From NCBI GenBank assembly GCA_032433595.1, contig JASWJB010000012.1, positions 234,398 through 298,397 on the forward strand: a DNA stretch of 64,000 bases, read 5' to 3'. The notes under the pieces are model-generated. The model saw nothing but the letters and a program-made list of their open reading frames with translations. It was not told the origin of the DNA and did not search any database. The first letter of the stretch is position 1. The number at the start of each line of letters is the position of its first letter. A program made the translations under genes and the position numbers. This DNA is from Conoideocrella luteorostrata. Lineage: Eukaryota > Ascomycota > Sordariomycetes > Hypocreales > Clavicipitaceae. Of the stretch, positions 41,607 through 53,756 are shown piece by piece.

Positions 41607-43120
41607 CTAATTCGTATTCTTAAACCCATTGTTGATTACCGACTTTGGGGTCCTAGTTCTATCCCTGAGTCCGTTTGTGGCCCGCCGCACCGACGTCTTG
41701 GAAATATAATCGCAGAGAGAGAGTGGAGTGGACTTTCCGAGACTTAGGATATAGGCACCTAAGCCGGCAACATGAGCAGCGGCCTGCGCAGTACCAGAAG
41801 CCACCGTAGTACCACCACCTGGAATAGTGCTTAAAATATGATGACCAGGAGCAAGAACATTTACTTTCTCGCCCAAATTAGAAAAATCAGCCAGCGCATC
41901 CGATTGGGTAGTTGCTCCCACAGTACAAGCATAGGGCTCAGACGCCGGGGATGTAACCACACTTCTTCGTTCATCTCCAGCGGCAACGGCAAGAAAGATT
42001 CTACGCCGGACCATGTTTCTAGCGGCGCTGTTGATGGGCCGGTAGTATGAACTGTATACGGGTGTGTATGCAACTACTCCTCTAGGACATTGTGTTCGGC
42101 GAGTAGCCGCATCTCTAACAACAAAGTCCATAGCTTCGATAATTTTAGACCTAAGTTGCATAGATGTTAGCTAGTTTTTCGACTGTTTCGTTCCATATTT
42201 ACAAGGACAATAGGTATTCACTCACGCTGAGGCCCTGCCATACTGATTTACGACCTTAACACCAAAGATACGGGCGTTCTTAGCAACACCAAAGGAGGCA
42301 GATCCAATTATTCCTGCAGCATGAGTACCGTGTCGTCTAAGGTCCCTTGAAGTTCGGTCATCACTGAAGTTTTTAATAAACGTAGCACGGCCGCCAAATT
42401 CCTAGATAAATTTGTTAAAGCCCGTGTAAACTTTCAAAGGGAATGAAAGAGACTTACTGGATGCCTCTCATCGAGCCCCGAGTCCAGCACATAGACACAG
42501 GTTCCTGCTCCGGGTTTCTCAAGATAAATATATGTAGTGTGCCGGGGTTTGCGATGAGATATTCGGGCGAGACCCCAAGGAGCATTCCGCTGCCTCATTA
42601 CCTTCCTACCGCCTATTGCTACGTCAACTTTGAATTGCCGCCTTTGTTGTTTTTGGAGAGTGTTCTTGGCCCTCGGCTCATAGTTCCTTTTAGTTATTGC
42701 TACCTCCTGCTCGGTGTAGACCGGCCGACGAGTTGGGGCCACATTTACAATAGATTCGTCCATGATCTCCACATCCGGGTATATATAGTCCACCTAATTC
42801 CTGGTTAATAATCCGGCTATTTCTTGGCGGTGCGGCTATTGCATCAACCTTACATTGCGCTCAGCGTCAAGTCTTTTTTTTTGGTCTATTGTTAACTTGG
42901 CCACAAAGCCGCGTAACACATCAGAAAAGCGCCCGACGGGTTGAATGCCGATAGAAGAAATAACGCGGTCAATATCAGCCTCGTTATCGCTTTTCATCAC
43001 AACGATATACTTTCCCTCAATGACCTGCTCATCGCGCGGTCCAAGAACTGGAAGGTTTTGTCGCTCGAATATTACGCCAAAGACGAATGGTACAAAGACC
43101 AGTGAGAGTCTTGGCAGCAT
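41607..43120 (-). CDS. subtilisin-like (S8, proteinase K type) protein lacking the catalytic serine
   Basis: Exons (minus) 43120-42854, 42793-42458, 42401-42226, 42150-41607 join cleanly to 440 aa. Order: signal peptide (MLPRLSLVFVPFVFGVIF), I9 propeptide (about 30-95, KYIVVMKSDNEADIDRVI), S8 domain. Catalytic Asp193 (CVYVLDSGLDERHP) and His225 (RRHGTHAAG) are present. The oxyanion-hole Asn is Asp319 (AVAAGDERRS), and the nucleophile position in the normal GTSMAxPH motif is Ala381 (SGTAQAAAH). All introns have good GT...AG ends, so the frame is intact though hydrolysis should be lost. Family knowledge makes it an extracellular protein; binding, decoy or inhibitor-titrating roles are speculation. 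A recent pseudogene is the alternative, but there is no stop or frameshift. Confidence 0.85.
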
Positions 43121-44189
43121 GGAGTCGGGAAATTCACAAAATGTGACAAACAAGCTTTTCTAGAATTGATGATTATTGTGCTTGGATATTTTTCGTGGCG
43201 ATTTAAGCATTTAAGAATTGTTCAGGGGAGACATACCTTCTCGTTAATCACGAGATACATATGTTGGTTGCTGACTGAATGGTAAGTGGCCCATGACACG
43301 GATAGCTATAATAGAAATGCCGACAGGAATAGTAGATTCTTGACCGGGAAGTTACTATTCAACGGTAGGTCCTGTGATCTTGTACATCGTACGACATTTT
43401 TAGTTGAAAATTGCGTGCTATAACTAAATCCGTTCTAGACAGTTGTTTCTATAACTCGGGTTATTATAGCTTGCTTGGTCAATGTTTAGAGAACCACCAG
43501 TCCAAGGAGCGTTCGATGTCACTACTGTGACGAAAACTTCGAAAGTTCGTGACCCGCTTATTTGATAGTAGCTTGTCATTACGAAGATTCTATTCATAAG
43601 CCACGATTAGCAGTTGAACTTCAGGCTTGCATTATGTCACGACTGTTCCAGATGTCAGGCGACTTGCACGTGGGATAGTCGTATTCTAATTATTAAGGCG
43701 TTTCGATTCATCAAAAATATGTACTGTAATAAATTAGCTAATAAAAAAGACTTTCTCTTTAAGTATAGGCAAATATTCTTTCCAAGACCACAAATAAGTG
43801 AGCGTCGATCGATTACTACTCTTCGCTCAGTCCAGTACTAGGATGTCCTCATGAAAGACTAATGACTCTAAATTTCTTCTTAATTTGTGTAGGACTGAAG
43901 ATTTATTTTATTAACCGATTTATGCAGCAGCAGCTATTTGTATAAGCTAGACATTATCCACACAGGTTACTTCGGTACTACTCCGCACCCTCTCCCCCCC
44001 GAATACCCTTTCACCTGCCCGGTCGACATAGCAATACCATAGAGTTCTGCCCACCAACAGTTTCCGTATCCTGATCGCATACTGTCTTCGTCGATGCAAG
44101 TATCTTTAGTGAGCAAGATATGCAAACGCAAAGCATCTTGCAAGAAAGGAAGCTCTTTGAAGCGATTTTGATCCAGTGAGAACAGACAC
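43121..44189. other. AT-rich intergenic
   Basis: No gene recognised between the pseudo-protease promoter and the ribotoxin-like gene. Short open frames (43614-43841 and others) are not protein-like. Confidence 0.45.
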
Positions 44190-44840
44190 TCAGAACGTGA
44201 TCTTGCCAGATGGAGTGTATTTTGAACCACAGAGATTGTACTTAAGAAACCCTTTGTCCTCATGATCAACCATAGTGTTAACAACAACGCCACAGAGCAC
44301 CGGAGCACCTTTACAGCTCACGTATACAACTCGCATGGGTGTATTCGGAACTTTGTCTTCGGAAGAATCATCGTGAAACTTCGATTTGCCCTCCTCGTCG
44401 TCTCCGCTGGATGGGTAGATGGGCCACTGTATTAGTTTGGCACCTAATTTGTCGCAAGTAGGGATACCAAAACGAATTCTTTTATGCTTGTTGTAAAATC
44501 TCTTAGGGAAGTGCTTCCCCGCAGCTCGCCAATTGACGCCAGCTTTTATAGCTTGCTCCAGCGCTACCGTCGTGTTGACTTTGTATTTTCTTTCGTCCTT
44601 GCCATCAATAATAGATCTGCATGACACGACCTAAAAATGTATTAGGTTTCCGTAGCAAACAGCTTTGATTCTAGCGCAATCTTTACTTACGGGAGCGCGG
44701 ACCGGCGGACAAATTTTTGAGAACGGGCATTTCTCAGACATCTGACATCCAAGTCTCAGCGTAGGACTTTCCCAGGCTGTCTGACAGAGAAAGTCCGTAG
44801 GGCATAAAAGATTTGTGACAGAAAAGAGTCCGAAAAACAT
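44190..44840 (-). CDS. ribotoxin-fold (hirsutellin-like) protein with altered active site
   Basis: Exons (minus) 44840-44691 and 44630-44190, 196 aa. From APVVSCRS onward the protein follows the hirsutellin-type fungal ribotoxins, secreted ribonucleases that cleave the sarcin-ricin loop. Conserved pieces include the Cys at 54, TCDK (Cys109), WPIYP, PMRVVY (Arg150, Tyr153) and LCGV (Cys163). By my alignment from memory, the positions of the family's catalytic Asp, His, Glu and second His are Phe91, Lys93, Gln118 and Asn168, so the nuclease should be inactive while fold cysteines and the Arg remain. There is an extra Cys156 and an acidic insert (GDDEEGKSKFHDDSSEDK). The N-terminal 50 residues are not a clean signal peptide, so exon 1 may be modelled wrongly. 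Intron GTAAGT...TTTTAG. Confidence 0.72.
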
Positions 44841-45399
44841 ATTGAATAATTTCGATTTAGGAAAAGCGAAGCAAATGACTTCTAGGAATCTTAACCAGGT
44901 ACTAGATTTACTGAAATATTTCTCGCATAATTGGGGCAGTGCTATCTTTAAAGTCGAGATGAATATTAAACGCCTTTTAAGAATTTCAATTGTGTAAAGA
45001 AATTTGTTCTTATTTATTATAGACTATAGTGCTAGCTAAAGGTAGGCCGGAGAATTATTTGCTTAACTCTATGCTACTTTACTATATTAGAATCTTTATG
45101 CTATAATAATTATTTTATACCCGGCTATTTAGCTAATTACTATTACTATTAACCTAATAGCTATTAAAATATTTTAAATATATCTTCCGTGTCTAACTCA
45201 CACGCCGCTGCACGCTGCTATATAAGTATCTGTAGGTTGTAAGGTAGTACGTAGTAATAATAGACAGTTAGGTAGCGAATATGAATAGAACTCTTGTTAC
45301 TAAGTACTCCTATAATAAACAAGACTTAAACTTGCCCATCTAATTAAGCTCGATTCAAAGTGCGCTATTTAAAGACAACGAGCGGAAATCGGGTAATGT

Positions 45400-45521
45400 T
45401 CGGATCCGGTCTGCGGTATTTATTTTAATTTAGTGTTCTCCTGAATCTGAATACGATCCACGGTGTTCTCCCTTAATCTGAATCTAATCTGCGGTGTTCT
45501 GAATCTGATCCGATCTGCGCC
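45400..45521. repeat. degenerate tandem repeat, unit about 35 bp
   Basis: Three to four decayed copies of a unit containing AATCTGAAT-GATCCG-CTGCGGTGTTCTC (e.g. GGATCCGGTCTGCGG, ACGATCCACGGTGTTCTCCC, CTAATCTGCGGTGTTCTG, TGATCCGATCTGCG). Confidence 0.7.
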
Positions 45522-45796
45522 TTACATAAGTTTATTACTGTAGTATTGTTACGTGCTCGAATTGCAAGCATATTATTATATGTGTTATTAATGTTATTAA
45601 TGTCTAGCCTAGCTATTCCTTATAGAAAAGGTGTCTTGTAGGTTCTACTTGCGGCGTAGCTAATCCACCTATACATCTGATGATTCCTATCGTTACATTA
45701 GTAATTTAAGAAGTTTTCCCCCGCGGTTAAGAAGTGTGTCTCTGTAAGGTGCCTTACTCCGCTGCTTATTATAATTAAATTCCTTTATTAAGGTAC

Positions 45797-45988
45797 TGTT
45801 ACGATGGGCACTGGGTTTACCTACTGCGCCAGGAACAAAAAGATCCAGCAGTGGCGGCGGATGCCGAATACCCCTAGTATCTAGCTATATAAGGCGCCTA
45901 TCGGCTAGAGTCACTAACGAGCCCCTGACAAGTACACGGTAACCTAATAACCCTTAAGTAAGCTATCTGACTATTTAGTCTCACTACA
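45797..45988 (+). mobile_element. probable solo LTR
   Basis: About 190 bp starting TGTTACGATGGGCACTGGG and ending CTCACTACA, i.e. TG...CA ends. It has an internal TATA box (CTATATAAGGCGCC) followed by typical LTR-like U3-R-U5 spacing. No flanking internal domain and no convincing target duplication seen, so this is inferred from structure only. Confidence 0.45.
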
Positions 45989-46562
45989 AGGAAGGTCTCT
46001 ATGAATTACGAAAGGTCGCCGCAAAAGCCTTTCACGGAATTTACGGAGCGTTGCTAGTTGTGTCACATACTAGTACAGGTGTGCGCTTTGGGTCGACATA
46101 ATATATACTATGCCGGCTAATATGGAAGCAGAGTGGATTTCGTCACTTAGATAGCGGATTATTAATTAGGGATAGTTACCTGGTTTCTCAACTCACGAAT
46201 AGGAGAATTCCCGGTGGCCCCGCTGAGACGGCCCGACTGTCTAATATATTCCTAACTCCACAAGTAGTACACTTTCCTATTATATCACACTATACTAGAT
46301 ATTCTACTCTTATGTTTATTATATCACATTTATTTACCTTATAATTTTACTCGTAATAGCGTTCTTTATACCTCTTGGTAGAATTAGTTATACAAGACTC
46401 GATACGACTAGGTATAATTTACATATATACCAATCTTTTTCTCTTCTACTAGGTGGCTCTTATTCTCTTATCCTATAAATTCTTTATTCCGCATGATAGC
46501 TGTCACCTTTTTCACTTGTCGCTAAGAAACAACACCGCCTTAAGCTTCCCTTGACTATTACA

Positions 46563-46944
46563 ATGGTTCAACTAGCTATTCTCGCCGTTCTCTCTGGGGC
46601 TACTCTCTCTATGTTCGCTCTCGCGAGTGACAATTGTGATGAGGACTACCATTACTGTGGGAAAAATCTCCTACAAAAATTCAGTATGCTACTTTTTTGA
46701 CGCACCTAAAATTTAATACTAACCTCGTTTAGAGGACTACGATAGCAAGATAACTTCTGCTCTTAACGTTGCTTCAATGGAGATAGAGGTTGACACAAAA
46801 GGCGATTCCCTCTTCTTTTGTAAAGACGACGGCAATCTTATATGGCAGCAGAGCTGCGACAACGGTTGCATAATTAACAATAAACGCTTGGGAGCTAGCG
46901 ACTACTGTGCCGAATTTAACGACAGCATTTCTGAAGATGAATAA
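46563..46944 (+). CDS. small secreted six-cysteine protein (110 aa)
   Basis: Two exons, 46563-46683 and 46733-46944; each is too short to stand out alone. A signal peptide (MVQLAILAVLSGATLSMFALA, 1-21) precedes a mature protein with six cysteines: 25, 32, 70, 82, 86, 99. The pattern is NCxxxxxYC-GKNLL..., then SLFFCKDDGNLIWQQSC, DNGC and DYC. The spacing (early CG-x-x-LL, a central LFxCxxDGxL, then C-x3-C and a final YC) resembles an expanded small-secreted-protein group of insect- and plant-associated Hypocreales; function unknown. The intron is 49 nt with GTATGC, a CTAACC branch and TTTAG. A TATAAAT box lies about 90 bp upstream. Confidence 0.72.
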
Positions 46945-47655: not shown

Positions 47656-49427
47656 GGTTCTGAAACCAACTCAGGCCTTTGTTGGCAATCGTGTGGTGTT
47701 CAGCAATTTTAACCCCTACCCGAAATAAAGCGAAGAGAGATCAAAGTACTAAGAGACAACAGCAGGAATTATCGGCGTCGCTATCTGCAATCATGAGGCT
47801 ATTTGTCAGTGAGCAAAACGTAACTCGCGAGCCATTCTTGGGTAGCACAAAATTAGTGTGGTTTGCTTCATTTCGAACCTAACCCCTGGACAACCTCTTG
47901 GACAGGCATATAACATCAATCGCTCCGCAACCACTAGACCGCTGTTTCGATAAACAATGATTGGATTCGACCTGGATGTAATGCGTACACAAGCTATAAA
48001 TCATCTCGTGCTGTGGAAATTTAAGCGCCCACGCTCAGAGATGGACTGCAAGATATACCGAACTCACCTGATACTATTTTGCCAAGTACTTGAAGTACGT
48101 ATCTCGTAACCTATCTGCACTACTGTTGGCTGAGGCATGGTTTAGGATGTACCACACATAACCCTCGAATCCAATATATGACGCTTTAGAGGCCTTTCTT
48201 GAGCCATTGAGATCTTTAATCATCATCACAAGCGAATTACATAGAAGTCCCGAAAGAATAGAACAAAATAGTAGATGATAGATTTATACAGAGCCTAATG
48301 CCCATTCTACCATAAGCTCCGTCTCAAAGCAAGGCAGAGCAAAATCGAGGTACTCCTTACATTCGTCGCTCGAAAAGGAATCACAGTACCCTTAAGTGAG
48401 CTTCTAGTATGCCGAATGAAATCCTGCGAGCGTCCAACCAATAACAGCGCTAATGCAACTCGGCCCTCGCGATGATATTTCTTGTGGCCAGGTCTGCATG
48501 GGTAAAGTGAGTCTAATGTCGAGCCGTGTGCACTATAGCGACTCCCTTATCAAGGCATTCTGCCATGGCTTTCATCTGCAAAGACCCTCACACTGATGAA
48601 TAAAACTCATCATGGCTTATAGAGCCTTAGAACTAAGTTCTGATGCGGCAACTATACGTGGTATGCTAAAGAGTTGACGAAACTACACTTTGGGGTGCGG
48701 GTTGGAGCTGACGGAAGCCAGTTATATGCTTTTCAATATCCGCAGAAATAGGATTGCCGTGGTTTGTTGACAGGCCGCCCGAGACGGAATCCAGATTATT
48801 GCTGAGGACATACGCTATTGTGAGTTGCACAGGGTTGTGCAATGATCTAGATCATCGGCTTCAAATGCAATATATTCAATAATAGTCGGGTCTATCTAAG
48901 AAGAGAAAAACAAGTCAAGATATGATGCCTACGATACCCGTATAAATAGGATGGCCGAAAGGTGACCACGTGACGATATCCGTGCTCTTGTTGTGTGCTT
49001 GGCGGCGAGATTCCAACAGCTATCTCGACGCAGATGAAGTTTATTTTTCACGTATAAGTTGAGTAGAGCTTATGCACCGGCATTATTATGCTCGAGGCGA
49101 CGTATCACACGGCCTCCTCCTGGGGGATGAAAGAGAGGCGTCACATTGTCCTTTGATAATGCGGCGACAGCTTACTCTTTGCACAGAGGGACCATGGGGA
49201 TGGGAGTTGATGCGGCTGACCCATGCTTTAGAAGTAGCGGTCGCGACTGTTACGATTAAGCTTAGTTATGGATGCTATCACACCAAGCTTTACGCCTATA
49301 GCCGCACTCATTGCATATAGCCTACATATAGGATAATTGCAGAGCCTTTTGGGTGACAAAAGCAGCCCAGAATCTAGAAAACACACTGTTGAGACCCGGT
49401 CTGTAGCTACAGCAGATCCTTATGTTT
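47656..49427. other. AT-rich region with coding-like fragments on the minus strand
   Basis: No intact gene. On the minus strand between about 48960 and 48060 several open pieces in different frames look like protein: IDPTIIEYIAFEADDLDHC, MKAMAECLDKGVAIVHTARH, GHKKYHREGRVALALLLVG, DECKEYLDFALPCFETELMV and SYIGFEGYVWYILNHASA. They could be exons of an unrecognised gene or a pseudogene; I cannot join them into one frame. Confidence 0.35.
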
Positions 49428-51569
49428 TCAAGCATGTTCAGCCGAGTAGTTTGGAAGACCAAGGTTGACAGTGTCCCAATATGACCAGTCTATATCTGCA
49501 AAATTGAAGTTGAGCAGGTCGCCTGTTCCCGGCTGGTTTTCTGTAAATTCGGACTCGGTAGGTTTGATACTTCCGGAAACCCCAATCACTTCTTCAGCCA
49601 TATTGAGTTTGTCCCTAAATCGTGAGATGTCGTCTTCCAGTTTAGCAACAAAAGCAGGCTTTCTCATAGACCCAAGTTCTGGCTTGCGCTCGCACACGTT
49701 CCAAGTGACTATCAACAAATCCGCCGCACTTAGCCTTCTCTTATCTTCTGAGAAGTCCGTTAGGAACGCGACCATAGCATACAGATCGTCAAGCAAAGTC
49801 CAGGCTGCTTTGATTTTGTTGCTGTCTCTCAGCTGCGGCATATCTAGAAGGAGCGCAATGACTTGGTCGAAGTTAGATAGGATGTATAGATACCCATAGA
49901 TACTAGAATAACTCACAAGCATGCCAACCGAAACTGGTCTCTGCTAGCCAATGAAAAGGCCGCAACATAGGCTGAGAGTAAGTCGTAATAGTGTAACCCA
50001 GCGCTTGCATGCACATGCTGAAATACTTATCGTGAAATTTGTTGTCAAGCTGGTCCGAGACTAGTCTCATTTCATGCATACCCCGCAATCGCAACACACA
50101 GACGACTGCTCTCGCTGAGATCTGAAGAAGAAGGTCAAGAGGTTTGATCGGGTCACAGTATTGTAGGAAATTGGTCTGAAGTCCTGCTTCAAGGTCATCA
50201 ACCATCATGGTGGTCAGAGGACCCAGCAAGGATCGGTCAACCGGACTTCGTTGATTAAGGCGTTTCTGACGAAAATTCCGTTGTTGGTCGATCATCCAGT
50301 AGGTAAATAGAGTGTACGAAATACCTGTCAGCCCAGTGCGTTCTTTAGGCGTTGTTTTTGAGGAGAGTGTGATATCGCAATCGTCGATATTTAGAGGTAG
50401 CTTCGCATCCCAATCTGCCGTGAATGTTAAAGGCGTTACGCCATTCTTGATCGCTAGGATCAAATCAAGATGCTGGACCTGCCACCATAGGCGGCGGCGG
50501 TCCTCTGTTTCAATTGGAGAGAGACCCATTAATTCGCCGTCTCGATGAATACCCAGTAGCTCTGCGCTTCGGGAGATAAGACCCATCAGCGACCAAAGGC
50601 TTTGGTTCGTCACTACGTCGATACTAGCTTTCTTTTGAGACGTATCTTAGCACAGAGTTCCAGTGAAAAAAACATGGACAGTTGAAGAGCTTACCGTGTA
50701 AACACACAGGGCTTTGAGGGTTAAGATGTCGTCAATAGCCAACATGATAATACGTGCGAATGAATCTTCGCAGTGTTGTCGATACTGCGACAACAGTGAT
50801 GATTTTGATTCGCTAAAGTCTCTTGCGCACTCATTGTCGGATAAAGTAACAACTCCAAAGAAGCAGCTGGATAGAGCCAGGGCATGCTCTCCAAGGCTCA
50901 AGTTTTCCCAAAGATTTGAATCAACCAAAGCGGATTGCAATCGTTCGAGTGTCCATTCAAATGAGATCTTCATTATCGGCTCTACTCGCTGCATGAATAC
51001 AGTCCACAGCTTGGTAGCACCGTCGACCGAAACAGGGCATTTTCTCGAGGAAAGTGAGGATTGTACATCTTGTCTCCACGGCGATCCTTGAAAAGCATGC
51101 GGTAGATGCTTGCCCGGGCGAAGTGTCGACCCTAGCGGGCTATTGTCGTTTAGTTTAGCAGCACCTCCGTGGGCGCGGGTGATGTTGATCCATGTTTGCC
51201 AGCCTTGTCTACCCTGAGGTCAGCGGTGCGCATTGAATTCGTAGGTACAAATGCTAACGCCTAGAGATGCACATACGATTCTAAATATATGGAGCGGCCT
51301 TCTTCCTGCAGCATTGCTGGTGTCTCTATTGTACTCTCGGTCGTCTCTCGGCATACAGCATTATCGGGGGATTTTCTCGCCCGACCCGACAAAGGGTCTC
51401 CACCAAGCGCTCTAATTGTTTCTTCAAGCTGTTTAATGCGCTCTGTGGGCGAAACCTCTGGGTATACACAATGGTCATGCTTCCGCCGTTTGCAATTCGA
51501 GCAAGTTGGGTCAGCTCGGTCGCACCTCACCTTGCGCTTCGCGCACGGTTCACATGCCTGGGCTTTCAT
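49428..51569 (-). CDS. Zn2Cys6 transcription factor with fungal-specific TF domain
   Basis: Exons (minus) 51569-51277, 51208-50695, 50631-49917, 49861-49428 give 651 aa. The N-terminal zinc binuclear cluster is CEPCAKRKVRC...CSNCKRRKHDHC (Cys6, 9, 16, 23, 26, 34). A coiled-coil-like linker follows (RIKQLEETIRALGG). The middle-homology/fungal TF domain contains SAELLGIHRDGE and EDRRRLWWQVQHLDL. The C-terminal acidic end (FNFADIDWSYWD) may be an activation segment. Exon 2 uses the acceptor GGGTAG, the only one that keeps the frame. It is divergent from an MFS exporter with a 398-bp shared promoter, so it is a natural candidate to control that gene. Confidence 0.88.
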
Positions 51570-51967
51570 CTCTCCGGAATTAACATAAGCCCGTATATAG
51601 TCGTGGAAACGAGCTTCTCCAAGCTTGTCGTGGATCGTGCGTCATGTCAGCATGAGAGAAGGCATCCCTCGGGGACCGAGCGAGATCTTGTTGCGTCCCT
51701 TAGCGTGGGACTAGTATTTCGGTGTCGGGGCCGAGTCCGAAGTGGATCCTCTCTCGCACTTTCACGCCTCTCCATGTTCTTTGGTACGTCATGGAATGAG
51801 ATAGACATATCGAATCCTTTATATCTCACAAGTGCTCTTTGTCCTTTTTTTTTCTCAATATGATTTCTTCCACAATCTGTTGATTATTGGAAGAAACTGC
51901 CTCTTAGCACCCACCCATCGCCGATTATCGAAACCACTTTGTCGCGCTACCAAGGACTCTTCTCAAC
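51570..51967. promoter_or_regulatory. shared divergent promoter, Zn2Cys6 factor / MFS transporter
   Basis: 398 bp between two start codons. Contains several CGG/CCG triplets (e.g. CTCCGGAATTAA near 51571, TCGGTGTCGGGGCCGAGTCCG near 51718), the half-sites usually bound by Zn2Cys6 dimers. Specific binding is inference. Confidence 0.4.
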
Positions 51968-53756
51968 ATGAATGAAGAAAACGACCCAAGCCGCTGCTCG
52001 GCTCTTAAAAAGTCCAATTATATCAACAGAGAGGGAAAAAAGTTGGATAGGAAAGATAATACTAAGTCAGGTGGTCCTGATCTTGAAAAAACGGAGAGGA
52101 ACAATGAAACGTCGTACCCGCCAATGCGAAAAGTATATTCTACCATGATTGCCATCTATTCTACGTTTTTCCTCGTTGCATTGGTAATACCACCATCATT
52201 TCCCAACAATACAATAACAATTTGCTCATACTGAAGTCTAGGATCGTACTATTATTGGCACAGCAATACCATCAATATCCGCCCAGTTCAACAGCTTCGG
52301 AGACATCGCCTGGTACGAGTCCGCTTTTCTACTACCTCTTTGCGTGCTCCAACTCTCTTTTGGCCTAGTTTTCAAGTACTACTCAACGAAGTGGGTTCTC
52401 TTCACACTCACAGCAGTATTCGAAATCGGTTCCATTGTCTGTGCAGCAGCTCCAACCTCACATGCCTTGATTGTGGGACGAGCCATTACTGGAATTGGGG
52501 GTGCGGGCATTGGTCCTGGCGCCTACCTTATGATCACCTTGCTCATGCCTCTACAAGACCGTCCCAAATTCCTTGGATCTTTGGGTGCCATGTTCGGCAT
52601 ATCGTCCATCCTTGGGCCCATTCTTGGAGGCTATCTTACCTCCATTACTTGGCGATGGTGCTTTTGGATAAACGTGCCCATCGGAGGTGTTGGTCTTGTC
52701 CTTCTCCTCATACTCGCACCAAATTTACCCCCTCCCACAAAGCCGGCTGGATCATGGAGACAGCGAGTTTCAGACCTCGACCCGGTCGGGTTCCTCCTGA
52801 TTGGTCCATCAATCAGCTGTCTTCTTTTCGCGCTTGATTATGGCAAGCAAGACTTAAACTGGTCAGGCAGTCGTGTCATCACCCTCTTCGTTGTCTTCGG
52901 TGTTCTCTTGTTGATATTCACCGCATATCAGATCCGGCTTAAGGAGAAAGCAACGCTTCCTCCAAGCATACTCAGCAAAAGAACCGTGCTAGTGGCATGC
53001 TTGATAAGCTTTTGCATTGGATCGTTACTAGTGATATACGCTTTTTACCTACCAATTTGGTTCCAAGTTGTGCAAGGCAAAACACCTCAAAGCTCAGGCC
53101 TTTCGTTACTGCCACTGCTACTGAGTAACGTTATTTCCGTGGTTGCCGGCGGTGTACTTGTGAGCAAGGTCGGATATTTCACACCTTTTTCTATTGTTGG
53201 TGGCGTTATACTAGTTTGCGGCGCAGCTTTGATCACCACATGGACAGCTGACATTAATGAAGGGAAATGGATTGGTTACCAGGTGAGACTTTAATCTAAC
53301 TTCGGCTGTATTGTTCTAATCCGTGTTCAGATCCTTACCGGCGTAGGGCTGGGCCTGTGTCTGCAGCAACCGGCCATTGCAGTCCAGACGGTGCTGTCAG
53401 AAAGCCAGATTGCAATTGGGACTTCAGTGTTGAACTTTGTGGTTTTTCTCGGAGGTACAATCTTCGTGACAGTGTCACAAACTTTGTTTGAAAGCAAATT
53501 GGTACAGAAACTGACCAACATTGCTCCCAAACTCGACCCATCTAAGTTTGCGAGCAGTGGCGCTTCAAGTTTCAGGGACTTCATTGATCCTGACAGACTC
53601 GATGAAGCGTTAGCAGCCTACAACGATTCGATGAAGACGATCTGGTACCTTGGCTTAGGTATGGCTGTTGTTGCGCTGCTTGCATCATTTGGGTTAGGAT
53701 GGAAGAGTGTGAAAACTGGAAAGACTTCGACCCAAAAAGATGACAGCGCATCATGA
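51968..53756 (+). CDS. MFS multidrug/toxin efflux transporter, DHA2 (14-TM) type
   Basis: Exons 51968-52183, 52242-53282 and 53331-53756, 560 aa. A charged N terminus precedes TM1 (TMIAIYSTFFLVAL). Family motifs: the TM1-2 loop DRTIIGTAIPSISAQF, GRAITGIGGAGIGPGAYLM, the efflux motif C-like ILGPILGGYLTSITWRWCFW and WINVPIG. About fourteen hydrophobic segments follow; the last (IWYLGLGMAVVALLASFGLG) is near the C terminus. This subfamily exports drugs and fungal metabolites by proton antiport at the plasma membrane. The divergent Zn2Cys6 gene suggests joint control. No biosynthetic core gene lies nearby, so its substrate is unknown. Confidence 0.93.

Follow-up and report, generated by a model that had tools for sequence, protein, structure and literature searches.

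A hirsutellin-like protein without the catalytic triad in Conoideocrella luteorostrata and its predicted role as a non-cutting RNA binder

Ribotoxins are known as cutters of a single bond in rRNA, and a gene that keeps the outline of a ribotoxin while the residues that cut are replaced raises the question of what its product does. Such a gene lies in the window, by which we mean the whole stretch of 64,000 nucleotides analyzed here. The boundaries given for it in a sequence-only reading of this DNA (44190..44840) were correct, and we add that it is a spliced gene of the minus strand. Exon 1 (44691..44840, minus strand) encodes 50 amino acids that form a Cys-rich N-terminal segment with C13, C19, C32, C38, and C44. 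It is followed by a 60-bp GT-AG intron (44631..44690, minus strand; GTAAGT...TTTTTAG) in phase 0, directly before the xVxC motif that opens the domain, and by exon 2 (44190..44630, minus strand), which encodes the hirsutellin-like domain of 146 amino acids and a TGA stop. Spliced together, exons 1 and 2 give a protein of 196 amino acids, the numbering of which is used throughout. An in-frame stop is located 18 nucleotides 5' of the first ATG, and the interval contains no AG; a coding exon spliced just ahead of this ATG is therefore unlikely.

When exon 2 was compared with the PDB (phmmer), hirsutellin A (2kaa) was matched with an E value of 2.6e-16 over query residues 1-132 and was the sole match below E = 0.001; the other PDB row, reelin (E = 0.013), was taken as chance. 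Exon 2 also scored 26.3 bits against the Ribonuclease family PF00545, above the curated cut-off of 24. The profile search against ribotoxins that had been recommended earlier has thus been run, and the E value of the hirsutellin A match means that the hirsutellin-type resemblance noticed over about 120 residues is not a matter of chance. It had also been claimed that the disulfide cysteines and the RVVY segment are retained. This holds, as the four disulfide cysteines of hirsutellin A align with C54, C109, C163, and C184 of the window protein, where the bonds themselves are predicted, and the RVVY strand aligns together with its Arg. A structure model of exon 2 alone was discarded at a pLDDT of 35. 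Judged by these alignments, the window protein is a relative of hirsutellin by descent. In terms of function, it should not be classed with the ribotoxins, because the His-Glu-His triad is absent from its aligned sequence.

The catalytic triad of hirsutellin A consists of His42, Glu66, and His113 (PMC4553468). In pairwise and multiple alignments alike, these columns are occupied in the window protein by Lys93 (44502..44504), Gln118 (44427..44429), and Asn168 (44277..44279), and the active-site Arg95 is retained as Arg150 (44331..44333; all on the minus strand). The sequence-only reading had placed these residues and Phe91 correctly in the 196-amino-acid numbering, and had held that all the catalytic residues except Arg are replaced. 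The loss of the three triad positions and the retention of Arg150 stand, but Phe91 (44508..44510, minus strand), which aligns with Asp40 of hirsutellin A, is not scored as a loss here. According to the accessible part of the hirsutellin study, Asp40 is important in hirsutellin, is new to the superfamily, and corresponds in position to Tyr48 of alpha-sarcin (PMC4553468). Because Asp40 is specific to hirsutellin, and because two RNases of the same genome, L007 and L011, keep the triad with Phe in this column, the presence of Phe91 was not counted. We regard the window protein as a relative of the ribotoxins without a catalytic triad, an assignment well supported by the alignments.

Loss of the triad does not by itself settle the loss of activity. 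The accessible text of the same study states that no triad residue of hirsutellin A is strictly essential for ribosome cleavage (PMC4553468), so that some residual cleavage by the window protein is conceivable. It could also be proposed that the protein is still a ribonuclease in which other residues carry out the acid-base catalysis, for example His90, which lies beside the pocket in sequence, three residues before Lys93. The tolerance of hirsutellin A, to some extent, to triad changes (PMC4553468) is in line with such a proposal. However, the His90 column holds Asn, Gly, and Gly in the three paralogues described below and no shared replacement is seen, and we consider catalysis by substitute residues improbable.

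The assembly from which the window comes (46.4 Mb, 620 contigs) contains three further open hirsutellin-like relatives, with identities of 52% (L002), 35% (L003), and 35% (L004). All three match hirsutellin A, with E values of 5.7e-20, 9.5e-40, and 3.8e-12, respectively; against PF00545, L002 (19.4) and L003 (23.2) score below the cut-off of 24, and L004 is unmatched. Their triad columns read R/S/H, S/Q/Y, and Y/R/Y, respectively, on which pairwise and multiple alignments agree. Across the four open paralogues, the window gene included, 16 of 16 disulfide cysteines are conserved, compared with one of 12 triad residues (Fisher p = 5.6e-7). All four have an intron at one position, in phase 0 and before xVxC (the introns of L002, L003, and L004 were read by eye from GT and AG), and exon 2 starts with VVSC in the window gene and L004, YVTC in L002, and FVTC in L003. 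The copy nearest to hirsutellin A is L003 (G000 C228:44577-44984), which is 56% identical to it and has a signal peptide, classical by hydropathy, both of the tryptophans associated with entry, and none of the triad residues. L003 is perhaps more telling than the window gene as the first gene to test.

A search with the hirsutellin row returned five loci, namely the four open ones, which lack the full triad, and one on C154 that is broken (L036, G000 C154:18700-21000, about 1015-1293). The broken copy has three internal stops, and its separate pieces show, by eye, His at both His columns; it was excluded from the counts of 12 triad residues and 16 cysteines. No open triad-bearing hirsutellin was found by this search in the assembly, which may be incomplete. 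The PF00545 family search of the genome gave nine matches, grouped as the window gene and six other genes, a number that is a lower bound, the family search not having listed L002-L004; in all six of the other genes, the motifs where the triad is expected carry, by eye, His, Glu, and His. One of the triad-bearing RNases, L007, was mis-set at the His42 column (K) in one alignment, its FPH motif aligning in another, and it enters no count. A weak match on C202 (L021, E = 0.0024) shows no ribotoxin pattern in its frames, was judged by eye to be chance, and was left out of the family count. Using L002 as the query against a protein database gave five candidates, none at E <= 0.001, an outcome that we attribute to the collection or its word seeding and that says nothing about rarity. 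Among the papers listed, judged by their titles and the beginnings of their abstracts in a library outside which lie most subscription journals and all bioRxiv preprints, there is no report of natural triad-less hirsutellin relatives.

It might be supposed that these genes belong to a family in decay, and both the AT-rich surroundings of the window gene, whose 2-kb bin (44001-46000) has the lowest GC content in the window, 40%, and the broken fifth copy on C154 are in keeping with that. However, the four frames are open, the place of the intron and the cysteines are conserved, and the pN/pS ratio of exon 2 is below 1 in six of six pairs (0.42 for the window gene and L002 and 0.50-0.57 for the other five). 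For exon 1, the ratio is 0.25 for the window gene and L002, 0.50 for the window gene and L004, and 0.69 for L002 and L004; with synonymous sites near saturation, all these values are rough. Ratios below 1 speak against decay, which we consider very improbable. As far as patterns of substitution can reveal it, these comparisons show constraint at the protein level on the disulfide cysteines and on the reading frame but not on the triad.

In a seven-row tree built without the catalytic columns, the window gene groups with L002 (98/97) and then with L004 (98/97). On this tree, a single clade of the four paralogues that excludes hirsutellin A was weakly rejected (AU p = 0.024, for a clade chosen after an earlier tree had been seen), and a clade of L003 and hirsutellin A was not rejected (AU p = 0.097). 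The weak rejection of the single clade favors two or more losses of the triad over one, and we tentatively suggest that two or more independent losses occurred. The seven-row trees have few rows and a distant outgroup, and the terminal branches of hirsutellin A and L003 in them are of length zero. A five-row tree places L003 with hirsutellin A (98/97) and the window gene with L002 (90/87), with the long branch of L004 flagged.

The window protein also departs from hirsutellin A at its N terminus. Its exon 1 is homologous to that of L002 (71% over 45 amino acids), which was the sole match besides the window itself in an exon-1 search; exon 1 of L004 was matched by alignment, L003 has no counterpart, and no Pfam family was matched by exon 1. 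This Cys-rich exon replaces the signal peptide in the window gene, in L002, and less clearly in L004. The peak hydropathy over 10 residues at the N terminus is 1.58 in the window protein and 1.24-1.58 across these three paralogues, compared with peaks of 1.97-2.80 in five precursors, L003 among them, that were taken from the genome as controls; by hydropathy, the only measure applied, L003 alone of the four has a clear signal peptide. An AG intervenes between the in-frame stop and the ATG of L002, and an upstream exon is therefore possible in that gene. The gained cysteine pointed out earlier is C156 (44313..44315, minus strand), which is common to L002 and L004 and absent from L003 and hirsutellin A, and since exon 1 adds five more, the window protein has 10 cysteines in total.

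Changing Trp71 and Trp78 of hirsutellin cost cytotoxicity, according to the accessible part of PMC4553468. Both tryptophans are present in L002, L003, and L004. The window protein has Ser in both columns, within its acidic loop, and the only tryptophans of its exon 2 are Trp84 and Trp119. With regard to the site of action, the window copy has neither a clear signal peptide nor the entry tryptophans, and L003 has both features.

These observations bear on the proposal that window-type paralogues are leaderless intracellular antidotes, which would stay in the fungus and shield its ribosomes from its own former ribotoxin or from those of competitors. The available text of PMC5331450 asks how producers protect their own ribosomes, and the absence of a clear signal peptide from the window protein, L002, and L004, with in-frame stops 18, 24, and 30 nucleotides upstream, fits an intracellular role, as does the absence of both entry tryptophans from the window copy. 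However, the ten cysteines, among which those of the disulfides are conserved, fit an oxidizing compartment, and loop 3 is acidic. Self-immunity, which the sequence-only reading had put forward as a possible role beside that of a decoy and ribosome binding without cleavage, is also weakened because the search of the assembly, which may be incomplete, found no open triad-bearing hirsutellin among its five loci. A ribosome-inactivating protein of the fungus itself would be another reason for immunity, and the PF00161 search of the genome gave a single match, which with E = 0.51 did not reach the cut-off. We consider an antidote of this kind unlikely.

Two stretches of unusual charge are found in exon 2. 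Along the former active site runs a basic segment (residues 82-109; 44454..44537, minus strand) with eight K/R and no D/E, a net charge of +8 compared with +1 for the aligned stretch of hirsutellin (three K/R and two D/E). The numbers of K/R and D/E in this segment are 10/0 in L002, 6/0 in L004, 6/2 in L003, and 9/3 in L007, and the contrast is not unique to dead copies, as the triad-bearing L007 has a net charge of +6 and the triad-less L003 only +4. The composition of the segment fits RNA binding, so far as charge can indicate it. The acidic loop reported earlier was also found, with eight D/E and three K/R in residues 123-148 (44337..44414, minus strand; net -5), where hirsutellin has two D/E and four K/R. 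Since the Lys-rich part of ribotoxin loop 3 may touch the target loop, as the available part of PMC5331450 puts it, an acidic loop 3 argues against docking of the window protein at the target loop in the manner of a ribotoxin.

The same features could be explained if the fold had been kept as a neofunctionalized scaffold, in which the target of the Cys-rich N terminus, the acidic loop, and the basic segment is a protein or a glycan, with no role at the ribosome. Comparison of the window gene with L002 shows tighter constraint on exon 1 than on exon 2 (pN/pS of 0.25 compared with 0.42), and L003 has no counterpart of exon 1. The loop thought to recognize the ribosome (PMC5331450, accessible part) has changed its charge, and the entry tryptophans are missing. 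Nevertheless, nucleic acid binding is the better account of the basic segment, and no search pointed to a target, exon 1 having yielded no Pfam family. We consider a scaffold of this type rather unlikely.

The surroundings of the gene were also inspected. A subtilase gene (41610-43153, minus strand) with at least four exons, in which PF00082 was matched in two of the four pieces scanned, lies 1,037 bp beyond the stop of the window gene. Its DSG and HGTH motifs are kept, and the motif of the catalytic Ser, which is GTSMA in active subtilases, reads GTAQA, so this neighbor is likely an inactive protease. The sequence-only reading had drawn attention to a non-catalytic protease close by; the distance and the altered motif agree with that, but no functional link with the window gene was found. 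On the other side, about 1.7 kb upstream, starts a gene for a small Cys-rich protein (46563-46944, plus strand) of two exons with a hydrophobic N terminus, effector-like and secreted-looking, neither piece of which matches Pfam. HET and Fungal_trans domains occur in the surroundings and, like the intron, point to fungal DNA. A dispersed 202-bp repeat (48819-49020) also has copies near L003 and L004; it has at least 41 matches in the genome including itself, of which 40 reach 90% identity and one has 77%, a lower bound since 40 of 633 candidates were scored. A divergent pair of a Fungal_trans regulator and an MFS transporter is found near the window gene (49431-53756) and near L002 (L023). We do not claim that the window gene and L002 arose by duplication of a block that includes this pair, since the transporter in the window has its best match over the full length on C43, together with a matching regulator; no ribotoxin match is listed for C43 in the genome searches.

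Considering that the triad has been lost while the frame and the cysteines stay constrained, we suggest that the window gene encodes a hirsutellin-like protein with Lys-Gln-Asn in the triad columns that would bind RNA, probably the ribosomal target loop, without cutting it, and that belongs to a small family of likely pseudoenzymes. We assign this reading a probability of roughly 45%. The protein would hold RNA or the ribosome, and Lys in the column of His42, inside a segment with eight K/R and no acidic residue, may favor the grip on RNA. A site so occupied could be closed to another agent acting there, such as a ribosome-inactivating enzyme of a host or competitor, by analogy with the RALPH effectors of Blumeria. 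In an extended form of this prediction, the triad-bearing hirsutellin was broken and the triad-less set was kept as ribosome shields, with L003 exported and entering the host and the leaderless Cys-rich branch, including the window protein, guarding from within; this scenario is speculative and, as a whole, fairly unlikely. The window protein could also be a toxin that kills without rRNA cleavage, as reported for a form of alpha-sarcin that had lost its catalytic activity and was produced in the cytoplasm (PMC2670844). However, the alpha-sarcin result was obtained by direct cytoplasmic expression, according to the accessible part of that report (PMC2670844), and the window copy has no entry tryptophans; we consider a toxin of this kind highly improbable.

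If disulfide cysteines and open frames are kept and the cutting residues are dropped, perhaps repeatedly, this suggests that holding the target is itself useful. If true, the hypothesis put forward for RALPH effectors could be tested in a second family, and natural triad-less ribotoxins would be a means to ask how producers and hosts protect their ribosomes. Should the shield reading be true and the fungus be related to the hirsutellin producers, as its sequence suggests, it would represent a second lineage, besides the powdery mildews, to have turned ribosome-cutters into guards.

Among known systems, the window protein can be compared with four. It shares with hirsutellin A (2kaa) the sequence of the whole domain, the four disulfide cysteines, the active-site Arg, and the RVVY strand. 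It differs in that its triad is replaced, a Cys-rich exon 1 takes the place of a clear signal peptide, Cys156, the basic segment, and the acidic loop are additional, and the entry tryptophans are absent. With the RNase T1/U2/F1 family it has PF00545 in common, but in the six other PF00545 genes listed for the genome the triad motifs are, by eye, intact, and the best matches of these other RNases, RNase Po1/T1 for L012 and RNase U2 for L007, are not hirsutellin. Ageritin, a ribotoxin-like protein of a mushroom, also carries a peptide at its N terminus that fits no known consensus for targeting, and it stays inside the hyphae, in vacuoles, as described in the available part of PMC7582721. In contrast to the window protein, it is an active rRNA cutter, and it is likened here by description and not by sequence.

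RALPH genes share an intron after the signal peptide. The Blumeria RALPH effectors, such as CSEP0064/BEC1054, have been proposed to occupy host ribosomes without cutting them and thereby to keep ribosome-inactivating proteins from acting, and they resemble the window family, whose fold is predicted from sequence, in being relatives of the RNase fold with no catalytic residues and several paralogues (PMC6464244, accessible part). However, RALPHs are RNase T1-like, have shorter loops and only two conserved cysteines, and, so far as the available text of the study concerned covers this, were found nowhere outside Blumeria (PMC8715435). The window family is of the hirsutellin type, with four disulfide cysteines, and does not fit the two-cysteine RNase T1 profile (PMC8715435). 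In RALPHs, the signal peptide is followed by Y(x)xC, for which the paralogues here have VVSC (window gene and L004), YVTC (L002), and FVTC (L003), with a clear signal peptide only in L003. We therefore compare the two families by analogy: the window protein may be RALPH-like in its working at most, and not in descent.
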